NCBI GenBank assembly: GCA_017642445.1
Contig: JAGCPA010000084.1
Location: 1-54,019, forward strand
Direction: 5' to 3'
DNA length: 54,019 nt
From: Spirochaetia bacterium
GTDB lineage: Bacteria > Spirochaetota > Spirochaetia > CADAEX01
Part shown: positions 185-17,742 of the stretch, in pieces
Numbering within the stretch: the stretch's first letter is position 1
Layout: each line of letters opens with the position of its first letter
Made by a program: the position numbers and the translations under genes
Notes under the pieces: model-generated
What the model saw: the letters and a program-made list of their open reading frames with translations, nothing else
What the model was told of the DNA's origin: nothing
The model's database searches: none

Positions 185-321
185 GGAAACAAGTTCTAAG
201 CTAAAGGTTCTATATAATCCCAGCAATAAGACACCCCTGTCAGTAAACAGCCAGAGGCTGTGACACCTCCAGGGGTGCCTTTTGCTGGGAGATAAGGCTT
301 TCTGGCTTAGAACTCGTTTCC
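185..321. repeat. 137-bp nested palindrome between convergent genes
   Basis: Four inverted-repeat layers share one centre. The outer arms 185-201 and 305-321 match over 17 bp with one mismatch. Inside lie 219-226/282-289 (CCCAGCAA/TTGCTGGG), 232-239/270-277 (CACCCCTG/CAGGGGTG) and 247-252/256-261 (ACAGCC/GGCTGT). The element separates the leader-peptide gene from the convergent XRE gene. It could fold into a long hairpin acting as a two-way terminator, or be a small palindromic mobile element; no target-site duplication is obvious. Confidence 0.6.
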
Positions 322-2823: not shown

Positions 2824-2852
2824 ACCGGTCGCACCCCGCGGCCGGTTTTTTT
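2824..2852 (+). terminator. Rho-independent terminator of the AT-rich operon
   Basis: A 9-bp stem (ACCGGTCGC with GCGGCCGGT, one T-G pair) closes a 5-nt loop and is followed by seven T residues. It lies 46 bp after the ankyrin gene and isolates that operon from what follows. Confidence 0.85.
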
Positions 2853-2910
2853 ATGCCCCTCCGCCTTAAACGAATAATGGGGTAAATAAGTTTATAACTT
2901 TTCTTATAAC

Positions 2911-3042
2911 CAACAGGCAGTAATGCCTGCCTGAGATATTGGGCTCCTCAGCAACAAGCATGCCATACTGTAAAGATGGCAGTATGGCTGGGCTTGTCTG
3001 AGGGGTACCCACCGATCGAGGGCAGGTATTAACTGCCTGTTG
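2911..3042 (+). ncRNA. Candidate structured RNA element, copy 1
   Basis: This intergenic stretch folds into nested helices: a long closing stem 2911-2921/3032-3042 continuing into 2926-2931/3021-3026, then TGGG/CCCA (2940-2943/3008-3011), CCTCAG/CTGAGG (2946-2951/2998-3003), CAAGC/GCTTG (2955-2959/2992-2996) and GCCATACTG/CAGTATGGC (2962-2970/2980-2988). A second copy at 17155-17295 keeps every helix while changing several base pairs in a compensated way. The copies share unpaired blocks such as AACAAGC and GGGTAC. The element lies between a terminator and the rpsF promoter; its 3' arm overlaps the rpsF -35 box, so it is not simply an rpsF 5' leader. Strand is not certain. I could not match it to 6S, SRP, tmRNA or a known riboswitch. 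Confidence 0.6.
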
Positions 3043-3068
3043 ACTTATATATATAAATAATGTTATAA
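3040..3068 (+). promoter_or_regulatory. Promoter of the rpsF-ssb-rpsR block
   Basis: TTGACT (3040-3045), a 17-bp spacer and TTATAA (3063-3068) form a good sigma70-type promoter, with a start of transcription near 3075 and a leader of about 55 nt. The -35 box overlaps the last helix arm of structured element copy 1, so folding of a transcript through the element and use of this promoter may interfere with each other. Confidence 0.6.
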
Positions 3069-3129
3069 ACAAATTTGACCTCTTTATTCTATCTGTATGG
3101 GTAGAATCAAAAGACCACAAGGAGGAAAA

Positions 3130-16856: not shown

Positions 16857-17031
16857 CCTGCTTGCAGCACCCATCCTCGATCGGTGTGATTCTGTACACA
16901 GGCAAAAGTTATCCCGGTCAGTCAGTGACATTGCTTTCGCACTGTCATCCTGAACAAGTTTCAGGATGCTGCCCGGTATAACAATGCCTGTATGTACAGT
17001 CCACAATATCTCGGATGGGTACTGCCGCAGG
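16857..17031. other. Large folded intergenic element with a three-way junction
   Basis: In about 175 bp the sequence pairs as a long interrupted stem: CCTGC/GCAGG (16857-16861/17027-17031), GCAG/CTGC (16864-16867/17022-17025), ACCCATCC/GGATGGGT (16869-16876/17013-17020), CTGTACA/TGTACAG (16892-16898/16993-16999), CAGGCA/TGCCTG (16899-16904/16985-16990) and GTTATCCCGG/CCGGTATAAC (16908-16917/16973-16982, one mismatch). The tip carries two hairpins, CAGTG/CACTG (16923-16927/16940-16944) and CATCCTGAA/TTCAGGATG (16946-16954/16960-16968). The last hairpin resembles palindromes dispersed in many bacterial genomes. It may be a structured RNA of 6S-like size or a palindromic repeat element; strand is unknown. 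Confidence 0.5.
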
Positions 17032-17154: not shown

Positions 17155-17295
17155 TTTGCTGCCGGCGGAAGTGCCTGCCAGAGGCATTGCGCTCTGCAGT
17201 AACAAGCACGCCACACTGGGAAGAAAACAGTGTGGCTTATGCTTGTCTGCATGGGTACGCACCAGCCGATGGCAGGTGCTGTAGCAGACAGCAAA
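17155..17295 (+). ncRNA. Candidate structured RNA element, copy 2
   Basis: This is the second copy of the element at 2911-3042. The same helices form: TTTGCTG/CAGCAAA (17155-17161/17289-17295), CCTGCC/GGCAGG (17174-17179/17271-17276), TGCG/CGCA (17188-17191/17258-17261), TGCAG/CTGCA (17195-17199/17247-17251), CAAGC/GCTTG (17203-17207/17241-17245) and GCCACACTG/CAGTGTGGC (17210-17218/17228-17236). Compared with copy 1, one G-C pair became C-G, one T-A became C-G, and two pairs of the CTCAG helix changed together. It lies just before the promoter of the YgiW-type gene, as copy 1 lies before that of rpsF. Confidence 0.6.
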
Positions 17296-17361: not shown

Positions 17362-17742
17362 ATGAAAAGATTTATTGTAGTTTTAGTATTAGCAATGGTA
17401 TGTGTTGCATTTGTAAGCGCACAGGGATTCACAGGAGAAAAGGCTGCCAAGGGTGGCTTCTCCGATGGTACAAATGCTCCTTCAGCTATAACAACAGTTG
17501 AGAAAGCTCTTAAGATGAGAGATGACACACATGCAACACTCCGTGGAAATATTGTCAGACAGATCAGACATGAGAAGTATCTGTTCAAGGATGCAACAGG
17601 CGAAATCGTAGTAGAAATTGACGATGATGACTGGGGTGGAGTTACTGTAGGTCCAAACGACACAGTTGAGCTTATTGGTGAGATTGACAGAGACATCAAC
17701 AAAATTGAGTTTGATGTGGACATTGTTAAGAAAGTTCAGTAA
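17362..17742 (+). CDS. YgiW/YdeI-type periplasmic OB-fold protein
   Basis: The 126-residue protein has a Sec signal peptide (MKRFIVVLVLAMVCVAFVSAQ, cut after about residue 20) and a single OB-fold of the bacterial BOF family. The diagnostic stretch is TLRGNIVRQIRHEKYLFKDATGEIVVEIDDDDWGGVTV and the following strand VELIGEIDRD. E. coli YgiW and Salmonella YdeI of this family help with stress or cationic-peptide tolerance in the periplasm; the ligand is not known. Here it is headed by structured element copy 2 and its own promoter, and rpiA follows 18 bp later. Confidence 0.85.
   Translation: MKRFIVVLVLAMVCVAFVSAQGFTGEKAAKGGFSDGTNAPSAITTVEKALKMRDDTHATLRGNIVRQIRHEKYLFKDATGEIVVEIDDDDWGGVTVGPNDTVELIGEIDRDINKIEFDVDIVKKVQ

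Follow-up and report, generated by a model that had tools for sequence, protein, structure and literature searches.

The window, by which we mean the whole analysed stretch of 54,019 nucleotides, carries three copies of a hairpin element designated W. The first copy, W1 (2911..3042, + strand; core 2921-3028), folds as a rod-like hairpin and scores 106.6 bits to R1, a covariance model built on six W copies. It occupies the gap that separates the upstream gene's terminator, read from the sequence as a terminator-like hairpin with a T-run at 2825..2852 on the + strand, from the start of rpsF (ribosomal protein S6, PF01250; 3097..3411, + strand). An outer imperfect inverted repeat surrounds W1 with arms at 2884-2908 and 3052-3076 (span 2884..3076). 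The second copy, W2 (17155..17295, + strand; core 17169-17278), stands upstream of the gene of a BOF-domain (OB-fold) protein at 17362-17742. About 130 bp from W2 lies W3 (16868..17024, minus strand), a 157-nt copy of the long class with a branched tip (three-way junction) and 65 bits to R1. A related hairpin of the HP3 type was located at 185..321 on the minus strand, its HP3 core (219-289) being accompanied by CCCAGCAAAAGGCACCCC arms and by outer arms GGAAAC..GTTTCC.

A first-pass annotation, made from the sequence alone, had described W1 and W2 as a two-copy intergenic element with compensatory changes. Both elements were found where it had placed them; W3, the hairpin at 185-321 and the outer inverted repeats around W1 had been overlooked. 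The two copies do share an alignable core, of about 110 nt in our analysis, with the blocks AACAAGC, GCTTGTCTG and GGGTAC, and the paired changes reported from W1 to W2 are all present (TGGG/CCCA to TGCG/CGCA, CTCAG/CTGAG to TGCAG/CTGCA, and GCCATACTG/CAGTATGGC to GCCACACTG/CAGTGTGGC). The six matching helices that had been proposed are stacked segments of a single imperfect hairpin and not separate helices. The predicted folds reach −85.4 kcal/mol for W1 (z = −11.3) and −78.3 kcal/mol for W2 (z = −6.7), and none of 200 shuffled sequences was equally stable in either case.

Family size and distribution

DNA searches located four more W-related places in the genome that contains the window, and R1 returned 12 W copies from it, together with one weak opposite-strand match of W1 itself. 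When 60 relatives were searched with R1, the kind of covariance-model search that the first-pass annotation had called for, the element was present in six of the seven genus-mates; the exception was G001, and no copy was found outside the genus among these relatives, which included four genomes of the same family. The six carrier genomes yielded 54 distinct aligned copies. W is therefore not a two-copy element or a lone RNA gene but an interspersed repeat family. A second covariance model, rebuilt from all 54 copies, recovered the same six carriers from 395 genomes of the class and none of the other 388, under strict filters by which weak matches may drop out. A BLAST search of W1 against phages and plasmids gave no match. 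The pattern AACAAGCN{14,44}GCTTGTCTG was also sought in genome and viral contigs; with unrelated taxa among the matches listed, it was too generic, and its matches were treated as chance.

The copies are single, dispersed and mainly intergenic, and their neighbours are unrelated genes, including housekeeping genes. Core sizes range from 65 to 160 nt over the 54 copies, with two main classes of about 110 and about 155 nt, and the elements extend to about 300 nt once nested outer arms are counted. Five near-identical copies occupy separate places in G002, each set in differing outer arms. In the window and at 12 loci, no Rfam 15 family other than tRNAs matched at the gathering threshold, so that the known-family match named in the first-pass annotation as a refutation was not obtained, and no description of the W family was found in the searched literature.

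Fold and covariation across copies

In the 54-copy alignment, standard pairs fill 95.5% of pair cells, compared with 69.9% after shuffling and at most 39.5% when the pairing was slid. Two-sided changes occur in 33 of the 39 pairs, and double-change cells number 505 against 131 in shuffles. The covariation score was 0.666 as opposed to 0.201 for shuffled alignments, none of 500 reaching the observed value, and at most 0.115 for slid pairings. Because this alignment had been fitted to the structure, its statistics are biased towards it, although hardly any gaps interrupt the helices. For the long class, 17 copies aligned separately with MAFFT give 54 pairs, 31 of them doubly changed, and a covarying three-way junction at the tip; as read from that alignment, many long-class copies have GNRA-like tip loops. 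The additional copies with broken pairing that would have spoken against a conserved fold did not appear; the further copies keep the pairing.

The conservation of the element resides in its loops. Over the 54 copies A19, U20 and A174 are unpaired and 100% conserved, and C166 and G173 are conserved at 83-85%, whereas paired columns average only 70% for the majority base. A19 and U20 form the 5′ side of an internal loop opposite CC, A174 is part of a GA/GA step, and the UA bulge in GGGUAC alternates among copies with a GGA/GGAG arrangement. The copies were thus shown to form one family with fixed internal loops (5′-AU opposite 3′-CC, the GA/GA step, and the UA or GGA/GGAG asymmetry) and freely covarying stems. 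Invariant loops within stems conserved for pairing only would suit a candidate binding site on a rod.

Orthologous sites, shared arms and gene context

The upstream site of rpsF holds W elements with very different cores in G000 and G002, HP2 hairpins in G003 and G006, and an unrelated hairpin in G001. Upstream of the BOF gene there is W in G000, HP2 in G003, G004 and G006, and no hairpin in G002 and G005. The gap between the BOF gene and rpiA measures 14 nt in G000, contains only a terminator in G003 and G005, HP3 in G002, and in G006 a long-class W past the T-run of the terminator. Relative to the gene, hairpin orientation is the same in every genome at the rpsF site and at the site upstream of BOF. 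One site compared by eye between G002 and G003 has its insert between T-runs, after the terminator. Central blocks are also swapped as units between orthologous copies (loci L254 and L276). Since such an exchange preserves complementarity within the block, part of the compensatory record may reflect block replacement instead of stepwise mutation; it leaves the strand bias described below and the fixed loops unexplained.

The W family has terminal inverted repeats, consisting of the arms CCCAGCAA..TTGCTGGG and layered outer repeats. The outer arms CCCAGCAAAAGGCACCCC / GGGGTGYCTTATTGCTGGG are common to W and to HP2, a second and commoner hairpin family with 3 to 23 matches per carrier genome, and some HP2 cores (GATATTGCG..CGCACNNTATCGAG) possess the AU/CC and GA motifs of W. 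The HP2 and HP3 loci (L340-L369 and window 185-321), whose outer arms are shared with W, gave no Rfam match. Pairing of the outer arms beyond these shared arms exceeded the 99th percentile of mismatched flanks at 4 of 52 loci, with a slight overall shift, and the additional complementarity is thus real at some loci only.

Two side observations concern the composition of the arms and tips. At L257 and L289, the outer arm is an inverted copy of the neighbouring 20-21 nt of tRNA 3′ end sequence, and at L276 and L270 it is an inverted copy of adjoining coding sequence, including the end of the coding region; at such loci the palindrome looks as if it had been extended by copying its flank in inverted form. 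Hairpin tips often contain GTCATCCTGAAC..GTTCAGGATGAC (L258, L276, L257, the long class, and window 16943-16970), which we take to be a widespread palindromic repeat of other bacteria, and this tip may have been acquired as a module from another source.

By a crude ORF rule and with orthologues included, 51 of 73 W and HP2 copies have a downstream gene encoded on their own strand. About a third of the copies are opposed to it, which excludes a pure leader role; the candidate of a riboswitch or leader for a defined gene set was rejected on these counts and because the downstream genes are unrelated. T-runs follow the hairpin in some copies and are absent from most, so that a general terminator role was likewise dropped. 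A promoter-like TATAAT stands in the left flank on the + strand in 11 of 81 cases and on the minus strand in 4, a weak bias, and several copies, a minority, are preceded by a module CATTCGATAACAGAGGTTATAAT with a −10-like box. W1 has a terminator on one side and the rpsF promoter region on the other, so that its transcription would need a start of its own or read-through.

Selection on one strand and its possible explanations

Counted over the mostly Watson-Crick pairs of the 54 copies, the ratio of G.U to A.C on the window + strand was 62:16, and among 16 representatives below 60% identity it was 22:3; the raw tally of 130:16 takes in two columns in which G.U is the norm. The + strand outfolded its complement in 51 of the 54 copies, under RNA and DNA parameters alike. 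If the element acted as duplex DNA or a cruciform alone, G.T and A.C mismatches should be equally frequent. Consequently, the strand-specific excess of G.U together with the better folding of the + strand strongly supports selection on one folded strand, as RNA or possibly as single-stranded DNA. Of the earlier proposal that RNA folding and not a simple DNA repeat is under selection, the single-strand folding stood up; the element is nevertheless an interspersed, genus-specific repeat, nested in inverted repeats and differing between orthologous sites by presence or absence and by core swaps.

The strand asymmetry by itself does not separate RNA from single-stranded DNA, for which the same result is predicted. 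One strand could fold while the DNA is replicated or transferred and then be the target of a transposase or recombinase, in the manner of REPIN/RAYT or attC systems, with the loops as protein contacts on DNA. Such a substrate would account equally well for strand-specific folding and fixed bulges; REPIN hairpins also show compensatory changes (PMC3116915), and the near-identical copies in G002 point to recent copying. We consider this explanation unlikely. The Y1 transposase (PF01797) was detected in none of the six carriers while controls were positive, and the reverse transcriptase PF00078 likewise in none, both results being limited by the draft assemblies. The only genus-mate with either is the W-less G001, which has five Y1 transposases and one reverse transcriptase (L388-L393). 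Their absence from the carriers argues against REPIN/RAYT-like and retro-mobilisation, and the lack of PF00078 also led us to rule against a retron or group II intron RNA. An integron attC array was rejected in view of copies that stand singly, dispersed beside housekeeping genes, and not in arrays at gene cassettes. Preference is given to RNA because of the GNRA-like loops in many long-class copies and an orientation that mostly matches the downstream gene. A miniature inverted-repeat transposon acting purely as DNA, in which palindrome correction (template switching) or block exchange maintains the pairing, appears rather improbable: the nested repeats, the trading of central blocks and the arms that invert adjoining tRNA or coding sequence are what it would lead one to expect, but correction should erase conserved bulges and internal loops and should treat G.T and A.C alike, neither of which is seen.

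Among explanations that do involve RNA, each copy could be an independent gene for a trans-acting sRNA with a promoter and an end of its own, comparable to multi-copy sRNAs. We regard this as highly doubtful, for although the CATTCGATAACAGAGGTTATAAT module and the T-runs would provide such signals, both are confined to a minority of copies, the strand bias of the promoter motif is weak, and stems without sequence conservation offer no common antisense seed. A structured RNA or riboswitch of known type, missed by the covariance models, would explain covariation as strongly RNA-like as that observed, and is barely conceivable given that Rfam matches remained at chance level at E up to 10 and that the copies are scattered beside unrelated genes.

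The reading that we favour, with about even confidence, is a genus-restricted interspersed long-hairpin repeat whose + strand is selected as the folded strand, most likely as RNA, and which acts in cis like ERIC and NEMIS, with the loops as a putative protein or nuclease site. Transcripts entering or crossing the intergenic region would carry the folded + strand hairpin. As with ERIC and NEMIS RNA, it could act in cis, in an orientation-dependent way, on transcript processing or stability or as an insulator, presumably at transcript boundaries and mostly right upstream of a same-strand gene, with the invariant loops being bound by a protein or nuclease. Copies would spread or be swapped, probably by recombination between the shared arms.

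Palindromic repeats that are interspersed in bacterial genomes and have RNA structure are a known kind of element, while the W family itself was not found described; its place is closer to the ERIC/NEMIS-type repeats than to any new class of classical ncRNA. The RNAs of Yersinia ERIC and of NEMIS act on neighbouring mRNAs through RNA folding, and the orientation of ERIC matters (PMC2229807, PMC2267715). Like ERIC/IRU and Correia/NEMIS, W is about 100-200 bp long, intergenic, non-coding and dispersed, and would form a long stem-loop in the transcript. Unlike ERIC and NEMIS, it combines near-freely variable stems with invariant internal loops, has two tip architectures, one of them a three-way junction, and nests its arms in layers. 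REPINs, which are dispersed extragenic hairpin units with compensatory changes (PMC3116915), share these properties with W, but their conserved ends are REP sequences, whereas W conserves internal loops and no Y1 transposase was found in its carriers. The stem-loop containing sequence families are, as W is, genome-specific repeats with a common predicted secondary structure (PMC2267715); compared by description, W differs in that its covariation, its strand asymmetry and the replacement of cores at the same site between genomes have been shown. Borrelia plasmids likewise have RNA motifs (PMC2674063) in which intergenic stem-loops recur and their pairs change in a compensatory manner; set beside W by description only, these motifs differ in being plasmid-borne and, for some of them, in their association with particular protein genes.

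It has long been asked if the palindromic repeats of bacteria are DNA parasites or persist because they function as RNA. In the more than 50 divergent copies of W, both the covariation and the comparison of strands favour single-strand (RNA) selection, the fixed internal loops hint at a searchable binding partner, and same-site core replacement with orientation retained constitutes a natural experiment on the effect of the repeat on its neighbours. It is a speculative and rather unlikely extension that W represents a new class of mobile, RNA-acting hairpin repeats: modular rods whose invariant internal loops would be bound by a dedicated protein, fixed in orientation at transcript boundaries, with stems and tips swapped wholesale between sites and neither Y1 transposase nor reverse transcriptase involved.

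As a minor observation on transcription signals, a promoter-like motif TTTTAAACTTTTTTCTCAAAAATTGAAGCAAAATGAAC..GTGTATACAGGTAAA was noticed upstream of different genes (L254:1700-1761 and many other loci, among them L325, L326, L331 and L336), and perhaps marks a shared promoter class or regulon. The probe, which also contained other sequence, gave about 100 matches over the genus.
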